Shown here in pieces: positions 3,812 through 22,300 of a stretch of DNA of 32,745 bases (position 1 is the stretch's first letter; each line of letters starts with the position of its first letter). The stretch is from Moorena sp. SIO3I8. GTDB taxonomy: Bacteria > Cyanobacteriota > Cyanobacteriia > Cyanobacteriales > Coleofasciculaceae. The notes under the pieces are model-generated. The model was not told the origin of the DNA. It saw only the letters and a list, made by a program, of their open reading frames with translations, and did no database searches. The stretch is from contig NZ_JAAHHW010000079.1 of the NCBI RefSeq assembly GCF_010692325.1, positions 1-32,745 of the forward strand, written 5' to 3'. Position numbers and translations under genes: made by a program.

Positions 3812-3838
3812 AAGACCTCAAATATAAATAATTTTGTC

Positions 3839-4462
3839 GTGCGTTACATCTGCTACGAAAAACAACCAAAACCGCTATCTTGCCTTAATCCAGAGGTAGG
3901 AGCGATTGCTGTTACCTACCTGCACGGGACAGACAGCCCGAGCGACGACTGTCAGCTACTGAAATACCGCAAGAAGATCAAATTAGATGAATGGGATACC
4001 ATTTACTTCGTTAACTTTTTCCCAGAAGAGGCCATTCGGACACTTCTAGAGAGCGGAGTGTGTGTCCGCATCTCTACCTCAGCAGTAGAGGAGTACCCTG
4101 GAATTATCGCCACAAAGACCAACGAGTCTTTCACTGTCGAAACGGTAAAGCTGGTCGATGGGGAGCTAACCAGAGATGATTGTACCCGTGGATTCGATCA
4201 ACTGTTCTTCGCTCGGAAAGCTCCAGAGATGATAGCTGCCTGCCGAAGGAGCAGGGCTAAGCACAAATACAGTCTTGATCAAGGCATCAACGAGTACTTT
4301 AACGATGGGATTGATGCAGTACTCAAAGGTGTGGACTTTGAGGGAGGTATCAGGGCATATGCAGATTTACTCGAATCAATCAACGGGGGAGGGAATTGCT
4401 TCATGCCTTCCGTTTTTGTGGGTACCGTGGGGTTGATGCACGCCAAGGGGATCGATCGCTAA
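3839..4462 (+). CDS. Hypothetical protein, faint DHH-phosphoesterase-like features
   Basis: 207 residues with a GTG start and no clear Shine-Dalgarno sequence. The N-terminus MRYICYEKQP, a later hydrophobic strand ending in an acid position (EWDTIYFVNFFPEEAIRTLL), and an ISTSA segment faintly resemble the start of DHH-type phosphoesterases of phages. However, the defining DHH motif is not visible, so I do not assign that function. The protein is soluble, with no signal peptide. It is divergent from the tandem-HTH gene and convergent with the next gene, with a HIP1 hairpin as shared terminator. Confidence 0.6.
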   Translation: MRYICYEKQPKPLSCLNPEVGAIAVTYLHGTDSPSDDCQLLKYRKKIKLDEWDTIYFVNFFPEEAIRTLLESGVCVRISTSAVEEYPGIIATKTNESFTVETVKLVDGELTRDDCTRGFDQLFFARKAPEMIAACRRSRAKHKYSLDQGINEYFNDGIDAVLKGVDFEGGIRAYADLLESINGGGNCFMPSVFVGTVGLMHAKGIDR

Positions 4463-6043: not shown

Positions 6044-9000
6044 TTAAGAAATCTTTGGCTTCATTGAATTGATGGCTGACTGCTTAAATAAAGGGAGACT
6101 CTTTAGTGCTTGCTCCCATCCGTGCATAGTCCTGAGATCTACATTGTTTTCTTCTAATCTAGAGATAAGCATTCTTCTGATACTTGAGAAAGATTCAGGT
6201 GGAACAAAAGTCCTAATCTGGTTATCGAATTTTGCCTTAAGCCTATCTATGGCCGGTTGAGCGCATTCAATTTCCATAATTTCTTCATTCCATATATAAA
6301 TATCAAGTTCAGCATCTGTTAAATCTTTGATTTCGTCTGAAATCTCCTGCTGATGCTCTTTGTCTAAGCACTCCATATACCTTTCAAGTCGTTGTGATAT
6401 TGTCATCTCAAGTCGATCTGCTGTTAACCTTTCCCATATCTCAACTGGAGGAGTTCGAGCGATCAAATCTTGCTGATGGAAGTAGTAAAGATTTATCATT
6501 TCTCCAGTTCCATCATAATTGAACGGTGCCATTACCACAGGCCATTTCTCTTTGGGAGATTTTACATTAGAATATTTTGTATCTGCATTTTGCAAAGATT
6601 CTAAAGCAAGGCGTAACTCATTGTTTTTTGCTTCTATTTCTTTTAGTTTTATCTCAGCAAGTAGTCTTGCTTGCTCTTTCTCTTCTGCCTGTATGCGCAA
6701 TTGAATATTGTCCATCTTAAGATCCTCTATTTCTAGTTTCATTGCGCTTAACTGAGAAATCAAAGCTGCCTTCTCTGACTTCAATTTATCTATCTCTGCG
6801 GTGTTTACAGGTTGAGATGACCTTTGACTCAATACAGTTTTCCTCCCAACCTGAGGAGGATTAGCAACCAATACTTCTACGCAGCCAGGATGGTAGACAA
6901 CCCGACGACCACCTTTTTGCTTGACCAGGACTGTGCCATCTTCAGCGATCGCTTTCTGGCCAACTCCCCAATATTTGTAACTTTTACCATTTCCATTCGT
7001 GATGGTCAGGCGCTGATGCAGCCCCAGGTCTGCTAAAACTTTAGTTAATGCATTGGCGGTGATGTCTGTGCGCTCTAGGGCATCATTGGTCTGCTCTAGT
7101 AACTCTTTAGCGGTTAGGTAGACTACTGCCAACTTTTCTGCCAACTCATCGCAAACCGTATTTAACCACTGATTACCGCGCCGCAGGAACCGACCAGGGG
7201 GAAGGACGATCCATTTCCTGCCTTCCTTCTTTTGATATCCTATCTCAGCTAATGCGCGGTTCAGGTCAGCAACTTTTGCGCAAAAATTAGACCCAGACTC
7301 CTTTAATTTGTCATTTACTATCTCTACCATCTGCTTCAGGCTTAGGTAGTACCCCTCCTCTGCTGGATTGGTTGCAGGCTGCTGACCGTTGGTAGTCTGG
7401 AAAACTTCAGTGGCTACTGTCTCAACAGTTAGTTCAGCCACTGGGTTTATTTCCGGCTCAGTTACTGCTTCAGCTACTGGATTTGAAATCGGTTCAGTTA
7501 CTGCTTCAGCCACTGAGGTTGATACAGGCTCAGTTACTGTTTTGACGTCTATAGCCTCTACAGATGGTGCAGTTTTGTCATTTTTTAGCCATTGAACAAA
7601 CAAGTCTCTGTATTCGGGATGGAGTCTCGCATTGTCCCCATCAGGCCAGATAACGGCCTCTATCCCTTCGTTCCCAAATATCGATCGGCGAAGAGCCATA
7701 GCGCGATCTGTCCCATTGAACCTTTTGAACACTCCATCATCATCGATGTCGAAGTCATCCATCAGATCTTCTAGATCGAAATAGGACCATTGCATTTTTT
7801 GCGCAGATTCCTCCCCCCACTTAACGAAGCGATCGCTTAATGCAGGATGAAGGAATGGGTTGTTTCGATCTATCCAGTTGATCACATCACCTGCCTCTAT
7901 GCCACTTACCGACTCAATAGTTAGCTGAGATTGAAGTCCTGCCTGAGAGGTGGAGAAAGCTAAGAACTGCTCTCTGGTTAACCCACTAGCTGATAGCACA
8001 TCTTTCAGACGCACGTAGCTAGGCTCTTGCTCTGCTGTTGCCTCCTCCTTTGTTTCTTCAGGGAATGGCAATAACTCCGAGCCTGCAACGGTTTCAGCAA
8101 TTCCAGCTGTCGGCTCAGATTGGGAATTTGGAACTGGGATAACTACTGATTCGGAATCCAAAACTGAGCCAGTTAGACTTATTCCTTCTGAGGAGTTACG
8201 CATCCTCCAAAGCTTCTCTTCCAAGTTTTTTATGACAATTTTCTTTTCTTCAATTTCTTTTTTTGCTACTTCCATAAGTTCTGGAGCGACTGCGATCGCT
8301 TCTAACAACTCAGTCCTCAGATCCGCATTTTCTGGATTAGTCAAGTCATCTCCGGTTATGTCCCATATTTTTTTCTTTTTGTCAGGAATTACTTCTGTTT
8401 CGATGAAAGGCACTTCCTCCTCAGCCTCTACCTCTGCTACAGGCTCATGACTTTGATCTGCCGCAGGTAAAGCTACTCGAACGGCTAATAGCTGGCTTGA
8501 ATCATTCTTGGGTGGTTCTGGGACATCGGAAGTGAATGGGGGACTTTCGCGCCAGTGAGATGTTTTAGTCTCAGGATCGTAAACTCCCATTTTTTCCGTT
8601 TGCCAAAGCACAATCAGGTTTTTGTACTCAGGATGCAGTAGCGCGTTCTCACCTTTAGTCCAAGCAATGGCTTCACTCCCTTCGCTCTCAATTATCTTTT
8701 TCCGCAGAGCGATCGCTTGCTCCGTGCTTTCAAACCATTGGAACTGTTCCGGAGTGAATCCAAGCATATATCGAAGTTCTGCGAGTTCGGAATATACTGG
8801 CTTCTGTTCTGTCTCGGATGGGGGCTGAACTTCAGTCGTGGCAACATTCTTGACTACCTCAACTTCCTCATCGAATGAGGAGATCGCCTCTACTTTCTCG
8901 GTCGATAGGGCTACAGACGGATACTCAGAAAACAGTTGGGATTTCAGATAATCGACAAAGCATTCCCACAATTTCAGATGAACTAGTGCGCCTGTGGGAG

Positions 9001-10300
9001 AGGTGGAGAGTATGAGTTGGTCTGCTTTTAGACCTTCTTTTTCAGCGATCGCTTCCCTCTTCTGTGCGTAAGCCGAATCCGAAATAAAGCTCTCAAAAAC
9101 TTCTTTTGTCGTTTTGTACTGCTTAACGAGATCGCCCAGAGGGAAGTACTGATCTATTCCAGGCTCGGAACCAGGAACAACGTGGTCGTTTTCTTCGATC
9201 TGCGGCTTGGTTTTTGTTGCTAGATAGGTGGATTGAGGTTCTTTCTCTAGCCGCGTTTGAGCCTCTTTTGCCTCAGGTTTTTGCGCGGTCGGATTTTGAT
9301 CTATTTCACTCTTTTGTTCCGAGGCAGGCTTTGTTATTGCAACTTTGGCAACCTGAGGCAGTACACGAGTCTTAGCCCACTCTCCAAACCGCTCAACTAG
9401 ATCAATGTGAATCAAAGACCCACCTTTAATGGTTGATCTCTCTTTGCGCTCAACCAAGGAAGCGATCGCTGGCTTTATTGATGGATCGGCCAGAAAGTTT
9501 TTTACCATCTGTTCGCTTGTACCATACTTCTCAAGTACAGTGACCAAAGGAACGTAATTCTCTTTTTCTCTTTGCTCTTTAGCCTGAATCCCCTCTTCAT
9601 ACGCTGAAGCGATCGCTGGGTGGCACCATAGCATGTTCTTCCGAGGGGTTATGTATGGCCTAACGCCCTGGCTGATCAAGTCTTTGATTAACTTCGGAGC
9701 ATAATCTCGAACGGTGGATTTGAATTTACCACGAAAACTGAGGTCTTCTGCGATCGCTTCTAAATCCAACCCTTCCGATAGTAATTGAACTTTACTGTGG
9801 CATAGGTACTCCTCTGAAACTAATCGGTAGAGGTCGGGTACTTCAGGATAAGAATCCTGCTGCTCTTCTTCTAGATCCTCAGGTTCACCTTCTTCTGTCT
9901 GACTTTCTAGGTTATCTTCTGAAGTCTCAACCTCTTTTTGGCTTTCCTCTGGGTTTTCCTCTGACTTAGGAGACTTAGTTAAATCCCACCCCTCAACTAC
10001 CAAAGGTTGATCGGTAATAGACAACCAGCATTCCCCAAAGGCTACAAGCAAATCTTTGTCCCCAACGATTTTCAAAGGCTTGTTGGCCATTAAAGGGACA
10101 GAAACAATATCTGATAAGTCTGCATCTTGAAGTAGGTTGTGGCGAGATTTTACCCCATCAAATAGTTCTTTTCGTTCCGAGTCGGTAACCCATATCCTTA
10201 GCTTTCTGATTTGATCGTAAGAGAATGCGCTGATATCAAGTAATACAAAATTACTAACTGCTTCGGGAACAGAGGTGCTATTGCTATTTTGGATTGTCAT
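6044..10300 (-). CDS. Giant protein with six KilA-N-like modules, HTH-like region and coiled coil
   Basis: 1418 residues. Divergent modules recur at about 157-238, 249-311, 385-455, 503-570, 761-832 and 840-905. Most open with Y-x-x-L...G-x-x-x-E-x-x-x-x-F and all close with a variant of HPxLxxxFxxW (e.g. LLHPEYKNLIVLW, FLHPALSDRFVKW, RLHPEYRDLFVQW). This is the ending typical of KilA-N/APSES DNA-binding domains (family knowledge; my match is by eye). Acidic or low-complexity linkers separate them, with a repeated V-A-E-A-V-T-E-P tract at 923-960. Residues 985-1145 hold two winged-HTH-like stretches, 1168-1240 is a coiled coil, and 1250-1418 is an unknown C-terminal domain. The ATG at 10300 has only a weak upstream signal. 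It is last in the leftward block. A DNA-organising, antirepressor-like or replication-scaffold role is inference. Confidence 0.75.
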   Translation of the reverse strand: MTIQNSNSTSVPEAVSNFVLLDISAFSYDQIRKLRIWVTDSERKELFDGVKSRHNLLQDADLSDIVSVPLMANKPLKIVGDKDLLVAFGECWLSITDQPLVVEGWDLTKSPKSEENPEESQKEVETSEDNLESQTEEGEPEDLEEEQQDSYPEVPDLYRLVSEEYLCHSKVQLLSEGLDLEAIAEDLSFRGKFKSTVRDYAPKLIKDLISQGVRPYITPRKNMLWCHPAIASAYEEGIQAKEQREKENYVPLVTVLEKYGTSEQMVKNFLADPSIKPAIASLVERKERSTIKGGSLIHIDLVERFGEWAKTRVLPQVAKVAITKPASEQKSEIDQNPTAQKPEAKEAQTRLEKEPQSTYLATKTKPQIEENDHVVPGSEPGIDQYFPLGDLVKQYKTTKEVFESFISDSAYAQKREAIAEKEGLKADQLILSTSPTGALVHLKLWECFVDYLKSQLFSEYPSVALSTEKVEAISSFDEEVEVVKNVATTEVQPPSETEQKPVYSELAELRYMLGFTPEQFQWFESTEQAIALRKKIIESEGSEAIAWTKGENALLHPEYKNLIVLWQTEKMGVYDPETKTSHWRESPPFTSDVPEPPKNDSSQLLAVRVALPAADQSHEPVAEVEAEEEVPFIETEVIPDKKKKIWDITGDDLTNPENADLRTELLEAIAVAPELMEVAKKEIEEKKIVIKNLEEKLWRMRNSSEGISLTGSVLDSESVVIPVPNSQSEPTAGIAETVAGSELLPFPEETKEEATAEQEPSYVRLKDVLSASGLTREQFLAFSTSQAGLQSQLTIESVSGIEAGDVINWIDRNNPFLHPALSDRFVKWGEESAQKMQWSYFDLEDLMDDFDIDDDGVFKRFNGTDRAMALRRSIFGNEGIEAVIWPDGDNARLHPEYRDLFVQWLKNDKTAPSVEAIDVKTVTEPVSTSVAEAVTEPISNPVAEAVTEPEINPVAELTVETVATEVFQTTNGQQPATNPAEEGYYLSLKQMVEIVNDKLKESGSNFCAKVADLNRALAEIGYQKKEGRKWIVLPPGRFLRRGNQWLNTVCDELAEKLAVVYLTAKELLEQTNDALERTDITANALTKVLADLGLHQRLTITNGNGKSYKYWGVGQKAIAEDGTVLVKQKGGRRVVYHPGCVEVLVANPPQVGRKTVLSQRSSQPVNTAEIDKLKSEKAALISQLSAMKLEIEDLKMDNIQLRIQAEEKEQARLLAEIKLKEIEAKNNELRLALESLQNADTKYSNVKSPKEKWPVVMAPFNYDGTGEMINLYYFHQQDLIARTPPVEIWERLTADRLEMTISQRLERYMECLDKEHQQEISDEIKDLTDAELDIYIWNEEIMEIECAQPAIDRLKAKFDNQIRTFVPPESFSSIRRMLISRLEENNVDLRTMHGWEQALKSLPLFKQSAINSMKPKIS
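9518..9538 (-). repeat. 21-bp TVLEKYGT-coding repeat copy inside giant gene
   Basis: Read on the minus strand: GTACTTGAG, three variable bases, TATGGTACA. It matches the copies at 19155-19175, 19290-19310 and 19323-19343 and encodes V-L-E-K-Y-G-T at the start of KilA-N-like module 2. The ends TGTAC/GTACA are inverted, so it could also be a protein-binding site. Confidence 0.75.
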
Positions 10301-10340
10301 AGAGAGAATGGGGGTTGTTTCAGTGACTCTTTCGAGTCTT

Positions 10341-10379
10341 AGCGGTGCGGGGTGTCAGGTTAATTTTCCCCGCGCCGCT
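10341..10379. terminator. GC-rich hairpin ahead of the giant gene
   Basis: AGCGGTGCGGGG (10341-10352) pairs with CCCCGCGCCGCT (10368-10379) with one mismatch and a 15-base loop. It lies in the leader of the giant gene, so it could end helicase transcripts or attenuate the giant gene. A second small stem GACTC/GAGTC follows at 10325-10338. Confidence 0.5.
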
Positions 10380-10397
10380 TTCTCAATGATAAAACGT

Positions 10398-10434
10398 CAT
10401 TTCGTCAACGTCAAGAAAATGACGAAATGTTTTT
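10398..10434. terminator. Hairpin overlapping the helicase stop codon
   Basis: CATTTCGTC (10398-10406) and GACGAAATG (10421-10429) form a perfect 9-bp stem. It is followed by TTTTT on the plus strand and by ACGTTTT on the minus strand. The helicase stop (10411-10413) sits in its loop. Confidence 0.5.
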
Positions 10435-12048
10435 CGTACTTGAACTGTCAAGTACAGTCATCGTTGTCAGTGGACTTTTTTTTTGATCCTCAGCCCAAAC
10501 TTGAGCATCACGCCACGCATAATTGCTCCAGCCAGGCTTGTAGCCTAGCTTCTGGGCGACAATCTTCCAATCACCTATCCCAAATTCTGCCCCTTTAGAG
10601 CGTTTAACCAGCTCGTGCCAAACCCAATACTTCTCGTAGCCTTTTTTCCGTTGGGTAGCGATCGCTTTATTGATTAACGGTAAAAACTCCGGATTACTTT
10701 TTGCCGTTAACTCTTTGATTTGAATTTCCATCTCATCCTCTTCTGGAAGCAGACCGGTGGGTTCCTCTGCCACTTTTGATCCAGACTTCAGTTCCAGTAC
10801 TGATTTGCAGTTTGGACAGGTGACTTCGTAGATGGGGACTCCATCATCGACTCTCACTGGCCTACTCAGTTCATGAGGAAGCGCGCGGAAGCAGTGTTCA
10901 CATGATTTACATTTAATAGCGTGATCGTCTCCTTTCAGGGATTTGGGAGAAAGGGACCACTCTACTTTTTCATCAGGTAGTCCGTGCCTGCTCCAGTTTT
11001 CGGTATGGTCGATGAGCACCACATACTCCTTCCCAGGAAAAGGTCTCAGTCCACGTCCCCACATTTGCTTGTCCAACACCAAGGAACAGGTTGGACGACA
11101 GACCTGAACGGCTTCTATCGAGCAAATATCCAGCCCTTCTAAAAATAAGCCACAGTTGGTTAAAACGGTAATTTCGCCCCTTTCAAAAGCTTCCAAAGCC
11201 TCCTCTCGTTCTTTCTCTGGACTCTCTCCATCAAGGTGTTTTGCCACCACTCCATTTTTGTTAAATTCGTCAGCGATCGCTTGAGAATGCAGTACCCCTA
11301 CAGCAAAAACGATAGTTTTTTTGTCTTTTGCGTATTTACTCCAAGTTGGGTAGACCTGCTGAACCATCCTCATCGCCTGCATCTGTAGCTGTTGCTGGTT
11401 GTAATCCCCTCCAGCTTGGCTAATTCTAGTGGTGTCGATAGGAACTGCTCCGAACATCTTAAAACTACTCAGGTGCCCTTTCTGTATTAATTCCGAGACT
11501 GAAATCCCCTCAACCAGAACGTCAAAGTGATCGGTGAACCCCTGCCCATCATTGCGGTGGGGAGTAGCCGAAACTCCTAGAATGTAGGCATTAGGGAAAG
11601 CTTCCATCACTTTTGTATAGCTCTTAGTGATGGCGTGGTGAGATTCATCGATTATGATCAGAGCTGGAGTAAAGCCTGTCTTTCGTCTAGCCAATGTCTG
11701 GACAGATGCGATCTGGATGCGGTGATGTGGTTCCGGCGGGATTCCAGCTTTAATGTACCCTACACCTTCTCCGGTGATACGTTGAATTTTGTCCCCAGCC
11801 TGCACTACTAACTCTTTCCGATGCGCCATTATTAGAACGTTGACATTTTGATCCGTGAAATACTTGGCAATTGCGGCAAAAGTAACAGTTTTTCCTCCTG
11901 CGGTAGGAAGCTGTGCCATCACTCGACGGTGACCCTTCTTCCATTCACTGAATATTTTTTCGACGAGATCGTGTTGATAATCGCGTAAAACAAATCCATC
12001 ACATAGTTCAGGAGAGAAGTGTTGTTGAATATCGATAGACTGTGTCAT
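10411..12048 (-). CDS. SF2 DEAD/DEAH-box helicase with zinc finger
   Basis: 545 residues. Superfamily 2 motifs are intact: Q-like LRDYQ (21-25), motif I LPTAGGKT (47-54), motif II IIIDESHH (131-138), motif III SATPHR (160-165), and motif VI QMWGRGLRP (328-336). A CxxCxxC...CxxC zinc site follows (CKSCEHC 380-386, CPNC 411-414), then a helical C-terminal domain (YEKYWVWHELVKRS, NYAWRDAQVWAEDQ) of the kind seen in DEAD-box proteins of phages and mobile elements. The expected activity is ATP-dependent unwinding or remodelling of DNA or RNA. The ATG at 12048 lies 85 bases after the small acidic gene; the giant KilA-N gene follows. Near its C-terminus, T-V-L-D is encoded by a perfect palindrome (10436-10455). 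Confidence 0.9.
   Translation of the reverse strand: MTQSIDIQQHFSPELCDGFVLRDYQHDLVEKIFSEWKKGHRRVMAQLPTAGGKTVTFAAIAKYFTDQNVNVLIMAHRKELVVQAGDKIQRITGEGVGYIKAGIPPEPHHRIQIASVQTLARRKTGFTPALIIIDESHHAITKSYTKVMEAFPNAYILGVSATPHRNDGQGFTDHFDVLVEGISVSELIQKGHLSSFKMFGAVPIDTTRISQAGGDYNQQQLQMQAMRMVQQVYPTWSKYAKDKKTIVFAVGVLHSQAIADEFNKNGVVAKHLDGESPEKEREEALEAFERGEITVLTNCGLFLEGLDICSIEAVQVCRPTCSLVLDKQMWGRGLRPFPGKEYVVLIDHTENWSRHGLPDEKVEWSLSPKSLKGDDHAIKCKSCEHCFRALPHELSRPVRVDDGVPIYEVTCPNCKSVLELKSGSKVAEEPTGLLPEEDEMEIQIKELTAKSNPEFLPLINKAIATQRKKGYEKYWVWHELVKRSKGAEFGIGDWKIVAQKLGYKPGWSNYAWRDAQVWAEDQKKSPLTTMTVLDSSSTKNISSFS
10436..10455. repeat. Perfect GTACTTGA palindrome in helicase 3' end
   Basis: GTACTTGA, four bases, TCAAGTAC. 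The left arm equals the first eight bases of the 21-bp repeat found in the replication and giant genes, and here again the codons read T-V-L-D. It may be a complete operator of which the others are half-sites. Confidence 0.6.
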
Positions 12049-12133
12049 GATAAAAACCTGGATTAGTTGTCATTTAAAAGTTACTGATTCTAAAGCGATC
12101 GTTCTGAAAAGCGATCGCTATTTATTTGCTGGA

Positions 12134-12424
12134 CTAAAAATATCTCAAAGAAATTTCGTGCTTCTCTCCACACTTCGACCTCCATTGATGAGTTATTACT
12201 ATCGGATCTTCTGGTGCCCAGATACAGCAAAGAACACTGTTTGGATCTGGGACATCTTCCTCTAGGATCCAGTCAGCGAAATCTTGACTTCGGGTTACGC
12301 CCATCATTTTTTCCCAATCTTCTTCCACCAGTACAGCTTGATAAAAGTCATCGGACTGGCTGTCAACAATTTCAAGAACATCTTCTAGGTCTGAATAATC
12401 AATCATTTCTTTGTCTCTCAACAT
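12134..12424 (-). CDS. Small acidic hypothetical protein
   Basis: Up to 96 residues; an internal ATG at 12406 gives 90 (MIDYSDLEDVLEIVDSQSDD) and may be the true start, since GAGAGACAAAGAA precedes it. Strongly acidic first half, tryptophan-rich middle and end (EDWEKMMG, DFADWILEE, CIWAPEDP). No family recognised. It lies between the ATPase-HNH and helicase genes in the same direction, so it is probably co-transcribed; an acidic accessory or inhibitor protein is only a guess. Confidence 0.6.
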   Translation of the reverse strand: MLRDKEMIDYSDLEDVLEIVDSQSDDFYQAVLVEEDWEKMMGVTRSQDFADWILEEDVPDPNSVLCCIWAPEDPIVITHQWRSKCGEKHEISLRYF

Positions 12425-12433
12425 TTTCGTCTG

Positions 12434-12463
12434 TAAGCGATTGGCCGTAGGCCACGCTAAGCG
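12434..12463. repeat. Short dispersed palindromic repeat of cyanobacterial type
   Basis: TAAGCGATTGGCCGTAGGCC then ACGCTAAGCG, with the inner TGGCC/GGCCA stem. Elements of this look (AAGCG plus GC-rich centre) are dispersed in cyanobacterial genomes. It fills the gap between two genes of the block. Confidence 0.5.
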
Positions 12464-12470
12464 AACGTTT

Positions 12471-14666
12471 TTAAGTGTTTTGGGTCAAATAATTGAGTCC
12501 CAGTTTTAGCCTTTTCGTAAAACCTTCGACTTGATAAGAGTTCCAGATATTCTTTGAATCTTCTTCCCATGTCTCAGGACTGTGGGCATCATCATGGCAA
12601 GAAGGGCACAACGGGAACATATTGACTCCTGGATCATCTTCCTCTCCCAAATAGACTGTTCGATGGATCTCTATGTTTTTTGCCTGCTTTTGGCATAGAC
12701 AACATTTTGAGTTAGTGAGTTGAATTGTCGCCAACTCTTTATATTCCCGGCTGGGGTAAGAAACCGCCCCATCTTCTTTAATGAATGCCTGCCCTTTGTA
12801 TCTGGAAAATTTAGACCCAATTTCTGGATTAAAACATTCCAGATAAGTAGAAAGTATATTGATGAATCTTTTTCTATTTTCTGTTGTAGCCAAATCCAAG
12901 GACAGAGAGAAAGACCAAAGATCAGTGCAGCCGCTTTCTTCTAGTTCTCTTGCTATATTGTCCATTTTTGAGTTGGGCATTTTTTTTTGAGCCAAAGATG
13001 CTTGTTGTTGCCCTGAGGGGATTGAACCCAGAGGATTAGCTCTGACTGGAGGCAGGTCAGCCGCGCTACCTAGATCACACCACTGTTCCTCAAATTGAAA
13101 AATCCTTTCTGTCTCAGTTGCTGAAACATCAGTGGGGACTTCAACTGTTACCGCACTTTTGAAGTTATTGGCCATTTGCTGAACTACCCCTTTATTGAAG
13201 GTGATCTTCTTCCCATTCCTAGTCTTTAAAAACTTCCCTTTATTTACACTGCAAATAATAGGAATCATCTTTTTTGCTCTAGCATTTACACAGGGAAAAA
13301 ATGACGAAGCTGCATACCCAGGGGACAAAACATGAATCGCTCCACCACTCTTGACTCCAACACCTGTTAATCTCCCAATCAGATCCGAGAGGAGTTGCAA
13401 TACAGGGATTGTTAATTTACTCCTTTCTCCGCTTTTATCAGCAGAAAGTTCTATTTCATCCCAGACCAATATGCAATCTATACGTTGCATAAACACCATT
13501 TGCTGGAAAGTCCTTAATAGGTTCAGGGTCTCGTTGATAATTTGACACAACGACTTTTGATCTAGCAAAGAAATATCTACTTCGACTTTTCTAGAATCAG
13601 GAACATGATCCCACCTTCCATCCTTGTCTAAAGCCTGAGCAAACCAATTGACATAGAAAACAAGAATACCTTCCTCTGCTTTTCTCTTCGTAGTTTCAGC
13701 TAACAGCAAAGTCTTTCCGCTTTGTTGTCCTCCCGCCACATAGCAACAAGTAGAATCTACTAAATCTTGAAATATCTGATAGCCAGTCCTGGAAGGCAAG
13801 AAGCCCTGCTGATAGTTTGAAGCTAACCCTTGGACGACAGGATTAGAAGATGGAGACTGGTAGTTAGAGTGAGTATTTCTGACAAGATGATGAGCAACAG
13901 GAGGGGATTCTATCTCTTGTTGGAGTAAGTCATTAGTCTTTGATAACCTACGAGATTGAGGTAGTGAATGGGGTGAGTGCGGGTATATTTCCCTGGTCAC
14001 AGGAGAAAGTTGAGAGCTTATCGAATCTAGAATGTCGTAATAATCAGATTCTTGTTTGTCTAGGTCATAAAACAGCTCAGTTATCATCAACCTATAAGCA
14101 TCAAAGCGTTCTTCGTAACTCTCAAAACCGGTGTCTTTAATCTCTGGGGAAATACTCTCAAGATAGAAGGCTATAGCTTTTCTGTTTTCTTCTACAAAAA
14201 CAGCCTCAAAAGCCTCCTCAGGAGAAAGGTACTCAGCTGCTACTTCTAGACTGGTTTTAGTCTCATTAGTTCTAACTGGCCGACCCAGGCTGTCTACAGT
14301 AGACTCCGTCAGTGAGCCATTTTTCTCTCTGTCATTTTCCTCTTGTCCCCTGTGTTTTGTTATTTTGTCATTTAATCTTGAAATATCGGACATTGTTAAA
14401 GCATAAAGTCTTAATTTTCCAGTTACTCCAAAGTCGGTAAACATGCATCCGCTTAATGTTACCAAGCCGCCAAGAAGAGATAAAATGCCCAAAGGAGGAA
14501 CAACTGGAACCGTTATTGCACTCCCTATTAGTCCAAACAATCCTAAGGAAGTTGAGACCCACAACCTAGTCTTTTCATCATTTCCTTTGTCCCCTAGAAT
14601 ATCTAATCGTTCTGTTAGCCATTTATTTGGTCTTTTTAGTTTACTGATGCTAGGATAGTCAGACAT
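12471..14666 (-). CDS. Membrane-anchored P-loop ATPase fused to C-terminal HNH nuclease
   Basis: 731 residues. Two adjacent membrane segments (about 36-54 and 57-77) form an N-terminal hairpin anchor, leaving the rest cytoplasmic. A variable, charged linker (100-290) follows. The ATPase core has Walker A GGQQSGKT (312-319) and Walker B CILVWDE (398-404) with a following SPGYAASSFF segment. The C-terminus is a compact HNH nuclease: CCLC (655-658), EIHR (666-669), FPLCPSCHDDAH (684-695), all zinc and catalytic positions present. Shine-Dalgarno AGGAG lies 7 bases before the ATG. A terminator upstream (14689-14725) gives it a separate transcript start from the membrane genes. I know no named family with TM pair, P-loop and HNH in this order; a DNA-processing, transfer or defence role is inference. 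Confidence 0.85.
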   Translation of the reverse strand: MSDYPSISKLKRPNKWLTERLDILGDKGNDEKTRLWVSTSLGLFGLIGSAITVPVVPPLGILSLLGGLVTLSGCMFTDFGVTGKLRLYALTMSDISRLNDKITKHRGQEENDREKNGSLTESTVDSLGRPVRTNETKTSLEVAAEYLSPEEAFEAVFVEENRKAIAFYLESISPEIKDTGFESYEERFDAYRLMITELFYDLDKQESDYYDILDSISSQLSPVTREIYPHSPHSLPQSRRLSKTNDLLQQEIESPPVAHHLVRNTHSNYQSPSSNPVVQGLASNYQQGFLPSRTGYQIFQDLVDSTCCYVAGGQQSGKTLLLAETTKRKAEEGILVFYVNWFAQALDKDGRWDHVPDSRKVEVDISLLDQKSLCQIINETLNLLRTFQQMVFMQRIDCILVWDEIELSADKSGERSKLTIPVLQLLSDLIGRLTGVGVKSGGAIHVLSPGYAASSFFPCVNARAKKMIPIICSVNKGKFLKTRNGKKITFNKGVVQQMANNFKSAVTVEVPTDVSATETERIFQFEEQWCDLGSAADLPPVRANPLGSIPSGQQQASLAQKKMPNSKMDNIARELEESGCTDLWSFSLSLDLATTENRKRFINILSTYLECFNPEIGSKFSRYKGQAFIKEDGAVSYPSREYKELATIQLTNSKCCLCQKQAKNIEIHRTVYLGEEDDPGVNMFPLCPSCHDDAHSPETWEEDSKNIWNSYQVEGFTKRLKLGLNYLTQNT

Positions 14667-14688
14667 AACGTACTCCTTTTATTAATGG

Positions 14689-14725
14689 AAAAGACCTCGG
14701 GACTTATTACGAGGTCTTTTTTGTT
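14689..14725. terminator. Terminator between membrane-protein gene and ATPase-HNH gene
   Basis: AAAAGACCTCG (14689-14699) pairs perfectly with CGAGGTCTTTT (14710-14720), with A/T runs on both sides, so it works in either direction. It closes the leftward transcript of the genes at 17253-14736. Confidence 0.8.
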
Positions 14726-14735
14726 TTTGCTAAGG

Positions 14736-15470
14736 TTATCGACGAGGTGCTTGGCCTACAGCTTCTGCTTCACCTAGAGAAAGTAGGAAAAGGCGTGCTC
14801 CAGCTGCGATCGCTATAACACTAATAATGTTGTATCCAGTGAGAAGGAGGCTATCCCCTAACCCCATTCCTGGCTGAAAAGTAGGGCGCTCCATGAAGGT
14901 TAAAGAGAACTCAACCAGGAAACAAAAAGCTCCGAGAGCCATGACCATGAAACGTTGCAGGCCATTTGAATCTTTAGACCGAGGGTTTAACCAAAGACCC
15001 AGGAATAGCCCTTGATTTAGGTTGCAAATCCCCATAGCAAGGAAGGCTATAAATAGCATCCAAAGATTTACTTTAAAATTCAAAGGGTTGTATCCCATCC
15101 ACCCAATCCAGCTACTCCCACCAGGAGTAGGAATGAGCCCGGATTCCTTAGACAGAATAATGTAGAAATTATCGATCGAGATAAGAGTGAAATAGACCCA
15201 CTGAGCTGTCCCAAACAGGACTTTAGATTCAGGAGACATTACCAGTTTGTGCAGCGTTACTCCTACAGCAGCGGCGGCGGTGGCAGCAAAGCTAAAAGTA
15301 ACATCAAGAACTTTCTGAATAGCTCCTAAGAATTTGATAGGGCTCTTGGTCTTTGCCTTGTAGTTGTAAGTAGCTGAATAATCAGAAGCGTAAGCCGAAG
15401 CCGATTCCTCTGTGTGATATTGAGGAGTAACGTTTCTCTGTTTCCTGTGATTACGAGAAGATCTTGACAT
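14736..15470 (-). CDS. Polytopic inner-membrane protein, unknown function
   Basis: 244 residues. A basic, hydrophilic N-terminus (1-50, many S, R, Y) is followed by about five membrane segments at 54-76, 86-106, 135-161, 173-192 and 207-231. There is no transporter or secretion signature I can name. Its ATG overlaps the stop of the preceding gene by one base (TAATG), which means translational coupling with that anchored protein, so the two probably form a membrane complex. The membrane-anchored ATPase-HNH follows after a terminator. The overall picture recalls membrane modules of DNA-transfer systems, but no VirB/Tra homologue is evident. Confidence 0.75.
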   Translation of the reverse strand: MSRSSRNHRKQRNVTPQYHTEESASAYASDYSATYNYKAKTKSPIKFLGAIQKVLDVTFSFAATAAAAVGVTLHKLVMSPESKVLFGTAQWVYFTLISIDNFYIILSKESGLIPTPGGSSWIGWMGYNPLNFKVNLWMLFIAFLAMGICNLNQGLFLGLWLNPRSKDSNGLQRFMVMALGAFCFLVEFSLTFMERPTFQPGMGLGDSLLLTGYNIISVIAIAAGARLFLLSLGEAEAVGQAPRR

Positions 15471-15997
15471 TATTTTTTACTTTTGTTGTAGTTTCCACAC
15501 GCTGCGCTGGCATAATCAGCTTCCATTTGGTTGTCACTGCCCTTAAAAAGGAAAGCGGTCTTTAGTTTCTCTATGTCCTGGTAGTCATTTCCACTGAACA
15601 CCCGAGCAGAGATCACCCCAATACAGATATGGGGGTCTGAATCATCCAGTACATATTGCTCTCTGGTCTTTGACTTGGCTAGCCGTCGCTTCGTCCCATT
15701 GCTGCTGTAATCTACACTTGGGCGGATTCTGGTTCTGTCTGAATAGATATAGCCAGGAATATATACGGCGAGGCGAGGTTTAACTATGTGATTGGCAGCT
15801 CGTGCGTCAGCGATCGCTCGGTCGTTCTCTATCCGGCTAACCTTAGCTTTAGTGTGGCGGGTCTCATCGTGTTGAGCGGTCAATAACTCCCACTCTGACT
15901 TAGCATTACATCCCCAAAAGATGAGAGAGGGAAGGAGGGTTAGGACTGATATTGTATTGATCACCCTAAGGGCTGGTTTATTGCTTCTAGGTTTCAT
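15470..15997 (-). CDS. Membrane-anchored or lipoprotein-like exported protein
   Basis: 175 residues from the ATG at 15997. The N-terminus is basic then hydrophobic (MKPRSNKPALR, VINTISVLTLLPSLIFWG) and ends at Cys30. This resembles a lipoprotein signal, but the residues before the cysteine (F-W-G) are not the classic lipobox, so an uncleaved anchor is possible. The remainder is hydrophilic and extracytoplasmic, with four further cysteines or short motifs (HICIGVISARVF, ASAACGNY). The frame extends upstream to a TTG at 16054, but a terminator hairpin at 16024-16042 lies in that extension, so I prefer the ATG. Coupled to the polytopic protein by a one-base overlap. Confidence 0.7.
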   Translation of the reverse strand: MKPRSNKPALRVINTISVLTLLPSLIFWGCNAKSEWELLTAQHDETRHTKAKVSRIENDRAIADARAANHIVKPRLAVYIPGYIYSDRTRIRPSVDYSSNGTKRRLAKSKTREQYVLDDSDPHICIGVISARVFSGNDYQDIEKLKTAFLFKGSDNQMEADYASAACGNYNKSKK

Positions 15998-16015
15998 GTC
16001 TTCTTGTGATTGGGA

Positions 16016-16042
16016 ACAAAAATCCCCAGTCTTTGACTGGGG
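16016..16042 (-). terminator. Minus-strand terminator after the 240-aa gene
   Basis: Read leftward: CCCCAGTC, loop AAA, GACTGGGG, then ATTTTTG. A perfect 8-bp stem with a T-run nine bases past the stop at 16051. It also decides the start of the next gene. Confidence 0.7.
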
Positions 16043-16050
16043 CAGGAAGG

Positions 16051-16773
16051 TCAATCTATTACCTCAGCTTCAAGTTCGTCTAACCACGCTGTAGCGGCTG
16101 CAACGGCATCGTAGTTGCGCCGTGCTGTTTGCTGCTGTTCTACCAAAGTCACCCGTTTGGCGTCAGCCTTCCGTCGGTCAGATCGCCGTTGTTGTAGACT
16201 TTGAGTGTAGTCCTTCAGTTGGGATTCGACCGGAGTGATGTGGTAGTTGAGGCTTTTCTGAGTTACAGCATCTGACACCTGCTGGTTGTCTTCGCGAGAC
16301 TGCTGGTCTAGCTGTCGTAGTTCGTTGAAAAACGCAATCCGGTTATTTACTTTTTGGTTGATATACCCCTGCTTAAATGCATTGTCTTCGAGATTAGCTA
16401 GATCTACGCCATCCATCACCGCATCATCGATCCGGCTAACTATGATTTCTACTGGAAAATTATCAATCCCCGCCAGCTGCAACTCTTGCTGAACTAGGGT
16501 CATCGCTTGATCCTTCACCTCTTTGGTTGTTAACGCCCCACCTTTAGTAGAAGGTTCAGATTTTGAGGTGCTGGCAGCGATCGCTTTGTTAATGCTGTTG
16601 TCAACAAATTCACATCCTTTCTCCATCGCCTCCAATAATTCAATGGGGATTTCGTTGTTCCCTTGGGCAAATCCCGCAGACAAAAGCAGACGAGTGGCAT
16701 CCTCTTCTGTGTTTCCGTATTCACCTGTTAAGGTTTCGATTGCTTCGTTCCAGGTCATTGTGTTGTCTGACAT
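16051..16773 (-). CDS. Hypothetical soluble protein with coiled coil
   Basis: 240 residues; GGAG ten bases before the ATG. The N-terminal 60 residues are acidic and helical (WNEAIETLTGEYGNTEEDAT). The middle (70-140) carries T-K-E-V-K-D-Q-A-M-T-L-V-Q-Q-E-L and similar helices. The C-terminal third (about 150-235) is a charged coiled coil rich in Q and R (DYTQSLQQRRSDRRKADAKR). No enzyme motif and no membrane segment. It follows the HTH gene by 15 bases, so it shares that transcript. An adaptor or structural partner role is a guess. Confidence 0.7.
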   Translation of the reverse strand: MSDNTMTWNEAIETLTGEYGNTEEDATRLLLSAGFAQGNNEIPIELLEAMEKGCEFVDNSINKAIAASTSKSEPSTKGGALTTKEVKDQAMTLVQQELQLAGIDNFPVEIIVSRIDDAVMDGVDLANLEDNAFKQGYINQKVNNRIAFFNELRQLDQQSREDNQQVSDAVTQKSLNYHITPVESQLKDYTQSLQQRRSDRRKADAKRVTLVEQQQTARRNYDAVAAATAWLDELEAEVID

Positions 16774-16788
16774 TTTAAGTGACTCCGT

Positions 16789-17253
16789 TTATGGTTGTTG
16801 GTAATTTCTGAAAAAATTGGCATCAAAGAATTTGAGCAAAAGAGCCAGATGCCGAGAAGTCGATGAGTAACTGTAGTCGTTGTTTTTGCGCAACAAGGAA
16901 ATAAGGTAGAAGACAAAAACCTGATAAAGGGTAAAACCTATATACCTCCTTCCTAGTTGTCTTTTTTGTCGGCGGTAAAAGTTCAATTCGATGACAAGTG
17001 GAATTTTTTCGCTGCCACTTTGGGGAGCGTTAACGATTTGCCTGTGCCATCTGTTGACGGTTTTTTCGCAAAGTCCCAGGTTCTCCTTCATTTCTTTTTT
17101 TGTTGGTTTCCTAGACCATTTGTGGGAGAAGAACTTCCTCAAAGCTTGCAGTCTGACGTCTTCAGGAACAGACGCCTCAAAGCACTCAGTTAACCCATTC
17201 ACTTCGGACACTTGGTGTCTGGCGAGATGGGACGGTTGGTGTACTATTGCCAT
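16789..17253 (-). CDS. HTH protein with C-terminal hydrophobic helix, head of the leftward block
   Basis: 154 residues from the ATG at 17253 (a GTG at 17271 would add six). A helix-turn-helix spans about 48-73 (RKPTKKEMKENLGLCEKTVN then RWHRQIV). Residues 104-121 (YIGFTLYQVFVFYLISLL) are hydrophobic enough to be a membrane helix flanked by K/R, so it could be a membrane-tethered DNA-binding protein. The inverted repeat GACACTTGGTGTC lies inside its own 5' coding end (17207-17219), and a sister copy lies 280 bases upstream (17499-17511), suggesting autorepression. No family recognised. Confidence 0.65.
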   Translation of the reverse strand: MAIVHQPSHLARHQVSEVNGLTECFEASVPEDVRLQALRKFFSHKWSRKPTKKEMKENLGLCEKTVNRWHRQIVNAPQSGSEKIPLVIELNFYRRQKRQLGRRYIGFTLYQVFVFYLISLLRKNNDYSYSSTSRHLALLLKFFDANFFRNYQQP

Positions 17254-17512
17254 GTATTTAACTGAACACACGCAAGGTTTTCATGTCTCAAGCGACACTA
17301 TGATAAGGCTGTCTATTGAGATTTAGTTTTAACAAGACTATTTTGTGGATTTTAAACAGTCCCTATAAATAGTCCTCAAATAGCTTTCAAGAGACTCCCT
17401 AAAAGGCTGATCACCCTCTTTTTTTAGAAGGATATGGCTACCTTCGATTTGAGTTCGGACAGTTAGTGGCTAAACTTCTTGAGTCTGATTCCTGATTAGA
17501 CACTTGATGTCT
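17206..17512. promoter_or_regulatory. Two operator-like inverted repeats GACACTTGRTGTC
   Basis: GGACACTTGGTGTCT at 17206-17220 and AGACACTTGATGTCT at 17498-17512 share an inverted GACA/TGTC core with a 5-base centre. They bracket the start of the HTH gene, as expected for an autoregulator's binding sites. Confidence 0.55.
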
Positions 17513-17628
17513 GAACTGGAAGACAGGACTGTTGTTGTCCAAACTAGTTGGATTTAACTATAAGGAAAACTAACATTTGGCGTATATCGAGATTAGACAG
17601 GATTAGTCTGCTCTACATGTAGTCAACA

Positions 17629-17698
17629 GTGTCCTAACTCGAAAGTAAGGGTGTCCGTTCTCAGTTAAGGCGTGTCCGTTCTCATCTGGAGGGTGTCC
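17629..17698 (+). repeat. Four GTGTCC iterons with 21-22-bp period
   Basis: GTGTCC starts at 17629, 17651, 17672 and 17693 (spacings 22, 21, 21). The middle two extend to GTGTCCGTTCTC. The period of two helical turns puts all copies on one face of the DNA, as in iterons of plasmid origins or cooperative operators. Confidence 0.7.
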
Positions 17699-17938
17699 CA
17701 ACTGGCAAGCTAATGGGCTGTTAGTCTCTTTATTACTAGTAGAAAAGCTGTTTAGTAGTGAAGCCAAAGGTCGTTACTCCCTCGTCACTATAGACTTTCA
17801 ACTATTAATCGATACACAATCAGCCATGTAGCGATCGCGCAAGATAGGTCCCTGAGCAGCAGTAGTAATTGCGTACTAATCACGAGATTTTCTAGATTTC
17901 TCATTTGTCAAAATATTAGGTTTTCTAGGTACTGTGGC

Positions 17939-18027
17939 GACCTAGAAGCAGTGATAATAGTTCTAGGTCTAGCGATTTCTGGACCCTAAAGCGGGCAGTC
18001 GGTTTGGTTTTGAGCTGCTCGCTTTTT
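17939..18027 (+). ncRNA. Structured RNA candidate ending in a terminator
   Basis: GACCTAGAA (17939-17947) pairs perfectly with TTCTAGGTC (17961-17969). Then AGCGGGCAG (17990-17998) pairs with CTGCTCGCT (18015-18023, one G-U wobble), followed by TTTTTCTTT. No coding frame precedes the terminator on this strand, which favours a short RNA; a convincing promoter was not found. Confidence 0.4.
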
Positions 18028-18041
18028 CTTTCCATATTTGT

Positions 18042-18070
18042 ATAGTAGCGAATAGGTTTGTCGTTGTCAA
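18042..18070 (-). promoter_or_regulatory. Leftward sigma-70-type promoter
   Basis: On the minus strand TTGACA (18070-18065), a 17-base spacer, TACTAT (18047-18042). It points toward the leftward block, 790 bases before its first ATG, giving a long leader that crosses the iterons. Confidence 0.5.
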
Positions 18071-18074
18071 GTAT

Positions 18075-18141: not shown

Positions 18142-18402
18142 ATGGAAGACCAAGCTCTCTACATCACATATCGAGTCCCTGTCAAAGGATTAAGACAAAA
18201 GATTAAAGAAGCCAGACTCGCTCAAAAGAAAAGAGTGGCTCCGTTAGCTGCTGAAGCAGGCATCAATAAAGCCTCTTGGTACGGAATCGAATCTGGAGCA
18301 ATAACAAGCATCACCTCAACCACTCTTAAGTCGGTAGAGAGAGCACTGGGAGTGAATCTAGAGGTAGAGGCTTGTTGCGGCAAAGGAAAAACTCCTCATT
18401 GA
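18142..18402 (+). CDS. XRE-family HTH repressor
   Basis: 86 residues from the ATG at 18142. A lambda-Cro/XRE-type helix-turn-helix runs from about residue 14 to 70: LRQKIKEARLAQKKRVAPLA, then AGINKASWYGIESG and LKSVERALGV. It has no catalytic or dimerisation extension. The best Shine-Dalgarno (AGGAG 18115-18119) is 22 bases from this ATG but 7 bases from an in-frame CTG at 18127, which would add MKSRS; a rare start codon is therefore possible. By position it probably controls the leftward promoter beside its own. Confidence 0.85.
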   Translation: MEDQALYITYRVPVKGLRQKIKEARLAQKKRVAPLAAEAGINKASWYGIESGAITSITSTTLKSVERALGVNLEVEACCGKGKTPH

Positions 18403-18886: not shown

Positions 18887-19154
18887 TAAATAGGCAGCCC
18901 TCGCTAGTTTAAGAAAAAAGGTAATTGCGTTTTTTTCCAGATAATGACAAGGTATAACCCCCTTGCCCCAGGTAAAGCCTTAAGTGATTATCGAGTATCT
19001 TCCCATAATACTAGATATTACTAAGAAGCACAACCCAATCCGGATTAAAGTAAGCGATCGCTTAAGAAAACAGGCAGTCCTTAGCTGACAACTAGTTCTG
19101 CCTCAAAACGAAACAACAAACGACCAAAAATATCAAGTTCCAGATAAAATCACC

Positions 19155-19343
19155 GTACTTGACGGTTATGGTACATACTCTAGAACTCATCAAGGGAAAG
19201 ATATAAACCCTAATTCAGAACAACTCACTGACCGGATCAGAATTTAAACCTAGGAGAGAGACATGAACCGTAATTCAGAACAACTCACCGTACTTGACAA
19301 ATATGGTACAGACCAAGCCACTGTACTTGACACTTATGGTACA
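19155..19343 (+). repeat. Three 21-bp repeats coding V-L-D-x-Y-G-T
   Basis: GTACTTGAC, three variable bases, TATGGTACA at 19155-19175 (non-coding), 19290-19310 and 19323-19343 (within the replication gene). A fourth copy is in the giant gene (9518-9538) and a partial one at 30563 (GTACTTGACATTTATACTGC). The outer TGTAC/GTACA bases are inverted. Confidence 0.8.
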
Positions 19344-22300
19344 TCCATGATGTTAACGAACCAGAGTCAATCTGTCAACAACAAAAAGACAAAAAGTCCT
19401 GTAGACTCTCCAATCCTAACACAGCTAAGCGTTGGCGCAGCCTCTGCGCAGCAGAATCGCTTGCCGTCAGATAATCTAAAAGAGTTAATTTCAAAGGCTT
19501 ATAGCGAATCCCATATTTTTCGTCAGGAAGAGTTTCGTGATGTTCGGAGAGTAGTAGAGGGTCGGGTAAAGCTGCGACAGACTCACGGTCTAATGACCGG
19601 AACAGTGGCGGAAGTAGTGAAGGAAGAGTTTGGGTATCTAGACAGGCATGTGTTGAAGCCTCAAGCTAGCCCTCTGTATTCCCCTTGGTACTATGAGGCA
19701 TTAGAAGAAGAACCTGAGTTTGACCAATCAATAGACCTAAGGCATTGGGAAGAGTGGACAGTTGGCTCTGGGGTAGATCCAGAACTAACAGCCCTGTGGG
19801 TGCAGAGTGGAGAGGGGAGAGAGCTTCTTTCTCGGGTTCTAATGCCATTACAGTACAAAAAGCGAGATGAATTAAGCAAAGACGAATACAGGCAGACATT
19901 TAAGCCTCTTAACTCTATTGCCAAGAGTCGATTTCACTTCACCAGAGGAGACAATGGGACTTCTGATTGCTGGGGGTTGGTTAAACCCGACGCCCCTCGG
20001 AGTAAAGACAATAAGAAGATCAAGTACGAATCGACTAGGGGGGTTCCCTCTGGCCTTCTTCAACCTCCTGTGCCGACTAAGCTAGCTCGGGAAATAGCGA
20101 CCAAGAATGGAGAGACAGCTGAAAGAATAGAGAAAATCACTCAAGAGAATTTTTGGGATTGGGTTAAAACTAATGCCCAAAGGTTATGCCTAGAGATTGT
20201 AGTAGTAGAGGGATCAAAAAAAGCAGCCGCTTTGATCACCGCTGGCCATATAGCGATCGCTATACCTGGTATTTGGAACGCTACGGACAAAGACATCAAA
20301 AATTACCCAAATGGAGAAGGTGGAGCAAAGCAATATGTTAATCACTACCTAAAAGCACCATTAAGAAGCTTGTTGGGATGTGGGTGTGATGTTCTAGTTT
20401 GGTTTGACTTTGATAAAGGATCTAAGTCTAAACAAAGGAACTTGAAAGCCGCCAGACGTCTTGCCTCAGCTATCCGTGCAGAAGATCGAGACAGCCAGTT
20501 AGATAAGTCAGTCAAAACTATAAGAGATCGAAAGATAACCATAGCTGAAGGTGATCCTGAGTTAGGGAAAGGGGCGGATGACATTTGGGTCCGTCCAGAT
20601 GGGGCAGAGAAGTTAGCTGAGGTAAGGTCTAAGGCTAAGAAATATAGATCTGTAGATCCTACTCTTTACCGAAGGTTGGAGACCACCCCAAACTTTAGCT
20701 ACAAACAAAGATACTGTCGGCCTATCCCTACTAAATTTGGGCAGGATAATTACCGTGGGGAAAAACTTATTGCTGTCAAAGCTCCGAAGGGGTCTGGGAA
20801 AACAACTCAGTCTAGTTCTTACGTGAAAAATTTGATATGTCTTTTGCACCAAGTGGGAAAAGAAGAATGGCAAAAGCTTAAAGTTCTTCTAATTGGGCAC
20901 AGACGTAGCCTTCTAAGATCTATCTGCAATGCTTTCAATGAGACTATCAGGAAGAAAGAGTTAGGATTTGAGTCTTCCGTAGAAAAAAAAGAAGAAATAG
21001 AGTATCTAAAACTTATCTTAAACAGTTTTGAAGCTGCCTTTGTCTACGACATAACGGACACAAAAAATCTTCCAGACTGTCATGCGATAGGAATCTGCCC
21101 AGAGTCATTACGGCCACAGTCTCAAAGCCAATTTGATCCAGAAGAATGGAAAGACGCCATAGTTATTATTGATGAATGCGAGCAAGTAATGGAGCATCTG
21201 AACCATTCAAGTACGCTAGAAGGGAAGCAGCCTAGTATCTTTTCTAATCTGGCTACAGTATTAAGAAATGCTTCAAAAATAGTCATTGCCGACGCTGATT
21301 TATCTGACTTAGGGTTGAAATTTTATAAAACGTTAGCTGAAGTGTCTAATGCTTATCTGTCAGTCAATAATTACAAATTTAGTGGAAAAGCAGCTTTCGA
21401 TGTTTATCCACTTCCCAGTGAAGGAGCTATTGTAAACAGACTAGAGCATGAAGTGTCTAGAGGGAATCGAGTCCTTTGTCTTCTTTCTGGCCAAAAAGAC
21501 ACTTCTACGTTTGGTACTACGGTTCAATCAATGTACGCTGCTTCGTTGGAGAAATTAGAAGAAGCGTGGGGTCGTCCTCTCAACATATTAAGGATAGACT
21601 CCGAAACCTTGGCCACAATGAATTCAAAAGCCATTGAGGCAATGGCAAATATGCACAACCCACAGTGGTGGTGGCAATGGGACATCGTCTTTGTTAGTCC
21701 CAGCCTTGAGACAGGAGTGGACATGAAGCTCCCTGGCGTTTTTTCTTGTGTATTAGGGCTATTCAACGGCTCTCAAACAGACAAAGGGGTTTGCCAATTT
21801 TTAGGGAGGCTTAGAGACCCTATCCCTCGTTACATATTTTGCAAAAAAGTAGGGTTAGGAGTGATTGGCTATGGTGCTCTGTTTCCTTCTCAATATAGAC
21901 AGTCTCAAAGATTTCAAACAAAGAACAATTCAAATATAATAGTAAGTTGCGCTAATGAAATCATAAACAGCCGGGTGGATGAGATTGAAGAGGAATACCT
22001 TGAAGACTCTCGGCCACATTACTATGAGATACTCTTAGACATTGCCAGCAAACTGGCAGTACGTATTAACGCTGGGAAGTACGAATACGACGTCAATATT
22101 TTAAATGGTTTAGCGGCAGAAGGACATCGGGTACATTTGGATCATCAGTGGGCAGAAGATGATCAATCAAATAAAGACAAAAAGAAAGAATGTGCCGTGT
22201 TCAAAGAGGAGGTAGTATTGCCGTGGGTCGTCAAGAGGATTGGTGCCGCCTCAGACATAACAGAAGAACAAGCGATCGCTATGGGGAAAAGTTTTTCTCT

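Follow-up and report, generated by a model that had tools for sequence, protein, structure and literature searches.

The A-E operon of contig C488

The stretch of DNA analysed here, the window, is the contig NZ_JAAHHW010000079.1 of Moorena sp. SIO3I8 (assembly GCF_010692325.1), which spans 32,745 nucleotides and is the whole of contig C488 in a genome of 8.0 Mb and 510 contigs. The original prediction had reported a block of eight leftward open reading frames (ORFs), which we find on the minus strand between 6044 and 17271 and name A to H from the first to the last. The first five form a conserved operon, A-B-C-D-E, that faces away from a replication gene and includes a membrane ATPase whose relatives place it with the FtsK-HerA pumps. 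We argue below that this operon may encode a machine that translocates plasmid DNA across membranes.

The genes of the core are closely packed. A (16789 to 17271), the first gene of the operon, encodes 160 amino acids from a GTG at 17271, or 154 from an ATG at 17253, and is followed, after the 15-base gap already recorded by the original prediction (16774 to 16788), by B (16051 to 16773; 240 amino acids). B overlaps C by 4 bases. C (15470 to 16054) has at most 194 amino acids if it starts at a TTG, with an internal ATG fitting better, and shares a single base, 15470, with D (14736 to 15470; 244 amino acids), in agreement with the coupled start proposed there. E (12471 to 14666; 731 amino acids) combines a membrane hairpin, an ATPase, and a C-terminal HNH domain.

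A five-gene core with optional companions

The block had been expected to be conserved as eight genes, and this holds for the five genes A-E but not for F, G, and H. The order A-B-C-D-E recurs at five other places, on four contigs of the same genome and on a plasmid of Moorena producens. The relatives of E are four in the genome itself, with 30-31% identity, and one on the Moorena producens plasmid, which has 35.5 kb. Searches by BLAST with the window proteins recovered E at all five of these loci, A at four, B and D at three each, and C at two; genes without a BLAST match were assigned by position, size, and alignment, and the assignment is weakest for C412, where one additional ORF lies between B and C. 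Contig C21 is circular by a 127-base overlap of its ends, and no end overlap was found in C502 and C466. Homologues of G and H stand behind E at one of the five other loci, L010 (50.8% and up to 62% identity), and the contig of C502 stops 2.1 kb behind E, so that their absence there is not certain.

Beyond its HNH part, window E had no match in the 147 other genomes of the order nor in the genome-contig collection, and a search for B in 291 genomes returned the genome itself and one weak partial match. Each genome contributes no more than a few scored candidates in these profile searches, so the counts of window-type loci are lower bounds.

E, a membrane ATPase linked to the FtsK-HerA pumps through its relatives

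The membrane ATPase-nuclease announced by the original prediction is E, in which we found a hydrophobic N-terminal hairpin (a hydrophobic stretch at residues 35-77, with helices at 13-52 and 57-82 in a low-confidence model), a P-loop ATPase, and an HNH pattern at the C-terminus. Across 24 sequences of the family, some of them admitted on the basis of gene position, K318 of the Walker A motif and E404 are invariant, and D403, which forms the Walker B pair with E404, is nearly so. The superfamily of the ATPase becomes visible through relatives. Window E alone does not reach similarity to FtsK, HerA, or TcpA in Pfam or in profile comparison (1.7%). The profiles of window-type and Nostoc-type E match at 97.6% over 195 columns, and Nostoc-type E in turn matches the FtsK profile at 94.9% over 153 columns; control comparisons gave 0.1-1.5% for CyRepA1 and ParM, 16-22% for a RadD-like helicase, and 8-31% for VirD4-type type IV coupling proteins. 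Among the 24 members of the family, four match the HerA domain DUF87 and five match FtsK, and in the PDB the family profile finds, among others, HerA (1.1e-4), TcpA (3.7e-3), and FtsK (0.02). By sequence and through its relatives, the E family belongs with the FtsK-HerA pumps.

The HNH pattern (CxxC, His, Asn, CxxCH) is complete in five of the six aligned E proteins; the E of C502 (2132-4348 of stretch L008) has kept the ATPase residues and lost both HNH histidines. The matches of E to HNH families of PHROGs are weak (0.003 and 0.013), and none was found in the E proteins that we read from loci headed by an actin-like ParM gene, which are described below. In stretches L122 and L124, E is immediately followed by another ORF that matches the E-type ATPase.

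Proteins A to D

The exported or anchored protein of the original prediction corresponds to C, which has an N-terminal hydrophobic stretch at residues 28-49; this suggests a signal-anchored protein located outside the inner membrane, with a domain that is probably periplasmic. Two of its cysteines, C144 and C186, are nearly invariant in 26 sequences. The predicted five-helix membrane protein is D, whose model has five long helices (43-76, 80-107, 136-161, 170-194, and 204-239; mean predicted local distance difference test score 77.3, predicted template-modelling score 0.62) and no significant fold match. S98, D100, and R195 are invariant in an alignment of 34 D sequences. Neither C nor D has a useful match in Pfam, NCBIfam, or PHROGs.

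A and B show no actin match in Pfam. A, which has no Pfam match to helix-turn-helix (HTH) families, appears from its sequence to carry an HTH-like segment and may bind DNA. B lacks hydrophobic segments and may be an adaptor. Profiles of A matched those of A-like proteins encoded at 12 Nostocales loci (89.9%, 1.7e-6, 63 columns), and B gave a weak match with the B-like proteins of the same loci (19%, 1.2e-3); unrelated pairings in the same comparison remained under 1%.

C-D-E is a wider family with exchangeable front ends

A profile of E run over 386 genomes of the phylum, with only a few candidates scored per genome, matched 12 genomes including that of the window; ten of these are in one other family and one is in another order. 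The order C-D-E is kept at the loci found in this way, which also carry an actin-like ParM gene and small genes ahead of C. Among plasmids, Nostoc-type E matched 67 records. In the 60 of them that were listed, the gene is annotated as a hypothetical protein or is not annotated at all, and 13 of these 60 (from Planktothrix, Annamia, and Pseudanabaena) match in the ATPase part only and may not carry C-D-E.

When named genomes were scanned with the conserved N-terminal part of E, 112 relatives came up; we kept 80 of the loci, all under the names of heterocyst-forming genera. In the 69 named loci with at least 1.5 kb of upstream sequence, E follows D in 64 and D follows C in 63. Of the 54 named loci whose upstream sequence exceeds 5.2 kb, 24 have ParM in front of C-D-E. 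In 12 of the 80 loci, C is preceded by an A-like and a B-like gene, which were chosen for their size and position. The order allowed a prediction for plasmid pTCL26-01_F, a circular record in which E begins at base 1: ParM (1.9e-95), C (2.2e-45), and D (2.9e-98) were found in order at its end. The 13 kb plasmid of Tolypothrix PCC 7910 (L059) has a copy of C-D-E in which ParM, D, and E are in pieces. The question raised with the original prediction, whether the families co-occur in cyanobacteria and keep their order, thus has a positive answer for A-E and more widely for C-D-E, but not for F, G, and H, and homologues of the core are not scattered singly.

The region between the operon and the replication gene

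The operon is transcribed away from genes of several kinds. In the window this is a replication protein of the CyRepA1 family (19263 to 23324, plus strand; NCBIfam NF042913, 280.2 bits for a cut-off of 200), and the presence of this gene marks the window as most likely a plasmid, possibly an incomplete one, since no overlap joins its ends. The Moorena plasmid also has CyRepA1 in the opposite position, C21 has a DUF3854 protein related to CyRepA1, C466 a DUF3987 protein, and C502 a protein that matches HTH_36 weakly (3.7e-5, slightly below the cut-off); in C412, a DnaB-type helicase and a methylase lie upstream of A-E instead. Since DUF3987 or weak HTH_36-type genes can take this place, the operon is not tied to CyRepA1. 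Between the operon and the replication gene, an 86-amino-acid HTH protein (18142 to 18402, plus strand; Pfam HTH_3 5.8e-7) is also divergent from the operon and has BLAST relatives at four of the five other A-E loci. Around the start of the CyRepA1 gene (19141-19298) there are 33-base and 23-base repeats, 88% and 87% alike respectively.

A promoter-like TTGACA/TAnTAT sequence followed by a two-hairpin leader is common to the window (TTGACA/TACTAT; 17918 to 18071, minus strand), C21, C466, C502, and the Moorena plasmid. The DNA of the leader is 76-78% identical to the C466 copy, whereas the E proteins are only 25-33% identical to window E. The five leaders fold better than their shuffled versions (z from -2.4 to -3.7), and three of 22 pairs have changes on both sides. 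A covariance model run on 40 sources gave nine matches; five are strong and each of these lies before A, and the other four have E-values of 0.05 to 0.89, the weakest being the match at the expected place in C412 (0.89). The leader corresponds to no Rfam family and is in none of the 19 other genomes of the taxonomic family. Possibly it works by attenuation. A third CCTAGA segment, present in the leaders of the window, L007, L008, L010, and L012, could pair instead, and the minimum-energy fold of the window leader uses it.

The repeats between the leader and A vary from plasmid to plasmid, and L010 has an exact 40-base repeat pair. In the window there are four GTGTCC sites (17629 to 17698, no strand assigned), spaced by 22, 21, and 21 bases, and five of the 13 GGACAC/GTGTCC sites of the window fall in 17190-17720; judged from the sequence, this array is a candidate binding array for A. 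We computed a general repeat score for five of the six window-type loci, all but C21. Background stretches scored as high in 0 of 185 cases for L010, an extreme score, and in 29 of 388 for L007, 35 of 183 for L008, and 23 of 173 for L013, where the score is moderate; it is not significant in the window (122 of 310). Of 13 Nostocales loci with A and B, 9 have their most repeat-rich stretch in the 600 bases before A; many of the 13 are closely related, and some have a 12-base repeat in frame with a longer A, so that coding repeats are possible. The same measure gave 2 of 21 for ParM-type loci.

These observations bring forward the hypothesis that the whole operon serves partition only: A and B, or ParM with its small partners, would segregate the plasmid, and C-D-E would tether plasmids at the membrane or clear them through the septum as it closes during division, with no transfer to other cells. 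A number of arguments are in its favour. First, ParM precedes C-D-E in the named loci at the frequency given above, and A-B occupies the same position in others. Second, there are repeats in front of A. Third, the operon diverges from replication-type genes of unrelated families (CyRepA1, DUF3987, weak HTH_36). Partition by ParM is not known to require a membrane ATPase, which counts against it. Because ParM or A-B stands before C-D-E, partition alone stays a serious rival, even if we place it on the unlikely side.

A possible association with plasmid mobility

A different kind of evidence comes from the plasmids that carry D. MOB-suite classes 41 of the 52 records with D as mobilizable or conjugative, compared with 27 of 50 ParA plasmids (Fisher p 0.011), 18 of 36 plasmids with a primase-type Rep (p 0.006), and 56 of 155 CyRepA1 plasmids (p 1e-7). 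When records with E are taken in place of D, the count is 43 of 67, which is not different from ParA (p 0.34). The excess of mobilizable or conjugative plasmids among carriers of D argues against a role in partition only, but the link is no more than suggestive, as the sets overlap and include near-identical strains and the p-values are uncorrected. A distribution restricted to filamentous cyanobacteria was also considered and set aside: the 52 records with D come from Nostocales genera and Allocoleopsis, and the test is biased by the use of Nostoc D and E as queries. The records of CyRepA1, by contrast, include 10 from Synechococcus and 8 from Synechocystis.

If mobility is the function, C-D-E could be a coupling module, its ATPase being a TcpA/VirD4-like protein that hands a relaxase-bound strand to the type IV secretion system of another element. 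This is improbable: a Pfam scan of 27 ORFs of the window found no relaxase, the Moorena plasmid is typed as non-mobilizable, and VirD4-type proteins are matched only weakly in the profile comparison (7.7% and 31.2%). According to a survey of 424 cyanobacterial plasmids, about 12% have a relaxase, and the other 374 (88%) would, under the current model, be likely immobile (PMC8600333).

The companions F, G, and H

Behind E, on the same strand, lie three ORFs of narrower distribution. F (12134 to 12424; 96 amino acids) is not conserved, as it has no relative among the 107 stretches searched, the window included. G (10411 to 12048; 545 amino acids) is, as originally proposed, a superfamily 2 helicase (Pfam ResIII, 3.2e-27); it is RadD-like, with 128.9 bits against the NCBIfam RadD model, below the equivalog cut-off of 720. 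Its relatives are in five other records of the 107 (L010, L043, L151, L184, and L134), two of which, L043 and L151, are apparently the same contig. H (6044 to 10300) has a relative in L010 alone among these stretches. Like G, it is best seen as an optional companion of the operon. The original prediction saw in it a giant array of KilA-N domains; H does have 1418 amino acids and repeats, but the identification as KilA-N found no support. Leave-one-out profiles recover repeats 3 to 6 (E 0.002 or better) and not repeats 1 and 2. H has no Pfam KilA-N match at E up to 1, two pieces of H, the L010 relative, and a piece of the latter have no KilA-N match at E up to 5, and the profile comparison with KilA-N gave 0.6%, with only one KilA-N sequence entering.

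The helicase and the nuclease domain together raise the possibility of a defence or exclusion system, in which the membrane ATPase-nuclease and its companion helicase would attack the DNA of incoming phages or plasmids. Pairs of HerA and a nuclease act in defence, E has an HNH domain, G resembles the helicase parts of restriction enzymes, and PADLOC gives weak matches (mad8, 0.042 and 3.6e-4) for the E relatives of L036 and L042. Against this, window A-F and H have no PADLOC match and G matches helicase stretches only, the operon adjoins rep or ParM, the nuclease pattern is lost in C502, and no HNH match was seen in the E proteins read from ParM-type loci. We regard a defensive function as very improbable.

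Other features of the window

The remainder of the window has genes with other affinities. A terminase large-subunit-like gene (24851-26359, minus strand; Pfam Terminase_6N 1.6e-12) is present on this plasmid-type contig, and no phage structural genes were found among the other window ORFs scanned with Pfam. A MerR-like gene and a gene for a 207-amino-acid protein of no assigned function (3324-4462; also at 9372-10602 of L007) have about 80% identity to a pair on the Moorena plasmid, far above that of the operon proteins, which points to recent exchange. A long ORF with WD40 repeats (3-2576, plus strand) is open at the start of the contig.

Discussion

We consider it an even call that A-E is a plasmid-backbone operon encoding a membrane machine for DNA translocation, which would serve transfer between cells or inheritance. 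Its parts could fit together as follows: E would be an FtsK-HerA-type ATPase of the inner membrane, anchored through its N-terminal hairpin, and D, with its five membrane helices, and C, anchored and with a domain that is probably periplasmic, would form a membrane complex around it. A would bind sites before its own operon and, together with B, recruit the plasmid to the pump, a place that ParM and small proteins would take on other plasmids. The pump could then drive plasmid DNA, probably double-stranded, through the membrane or the septum towards a neighbour or a daughter cell, with the HNH domain cutting or processing DNA at the pump. The sequences themselves establish the conserved gene order, the superfamily of the ATPase by way of its relatives, the HNH pattern, the hydrophobic segments of C, D, and E, the divergence from a replication gene, the leader, and the repeats; what we infer from them extends from DNA binding by A through recruitment and complex assembly to the pumping and its purpose.

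The closest analogy may be with the plasmids of Streptomyces. In PMC4170104, transfer is described as involving TraB, an FtsK-type translocase, and small membrane Spd proteins, on plasmids that carry their own recognition repeats; TraB and Spd proteins are there highly diverse between plasmids, SpdB2 is an integral membrane protein with a reported interaction with TraB, and TraB itself recognises the plasmid repeats. C-D-E likewise consists of a translocase, FtsK-like by way of its relatives, encoded with small membrane proteins. There are differences: the C-terminus of E is an HNH domain, and the recognition of repeats seems to be delegated to A and B or to ParM. The likeness of C and D to Spd proteins is one of description, and Pfam scans of C and D gave no useful match.

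Other systems share part of these traits. PMC5365140 presents Thermus TdtA as a membrane-associated FtsK-HerA-type ATPase that pushes DNA out and works with a nuclease on a mobile element, as E might; TdtA acts alongside a NurA-like protein and a type IIG enzyme, and its nuclease is a separate protein. TcpA of pCW3 comes first in the fold comparison of E, with a match at noise level, is among the sequence matches, and also has N-terminal membrane segments before the ATPase, but no relaxase or mating channel is seen in the window. As for ParMRC, a ParM-family actin fronts many C-D-E operons and repeats precede the first gene in the window, which has A and B instead and no actin match. The original prediction of an undescribed DNA-handling system thus stands in part: C and D have no useful database match, but the ATPase is of a recognised kind. 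No description of the operon was found in the titles and abstract openings that searches of an open-access library returned; the pump superfamily is known, and in the literature searched no name turned up for the operon, for its partner proteins, or for the exchangeable front ends.

A more specific version of the DNA-translocation machine, rather unlikely in our view, is that C-D-E is a relaxase-independent pump that moves double-stranded plasmid DNA between neighbours in a filament, with ParM or A and B choosing the cargo. Partition and transfer may not be separable in a mycelium, according to the authors of PMC4170104, and by analogy the two may be inseparable in filamentous hosts. If this version is true, the operon would be the cyanobacterial counterpart of the TraB/Spd spreading of plasmids in Streptomyces mycelium, and it would explain the movement of plasmids without relaxases. 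In either case, the operon recurs on many plasmids, its products annotated as hypothetical proteins, and it offers a concrete candidate for the way in which some of these plasmids are inherited or spread.
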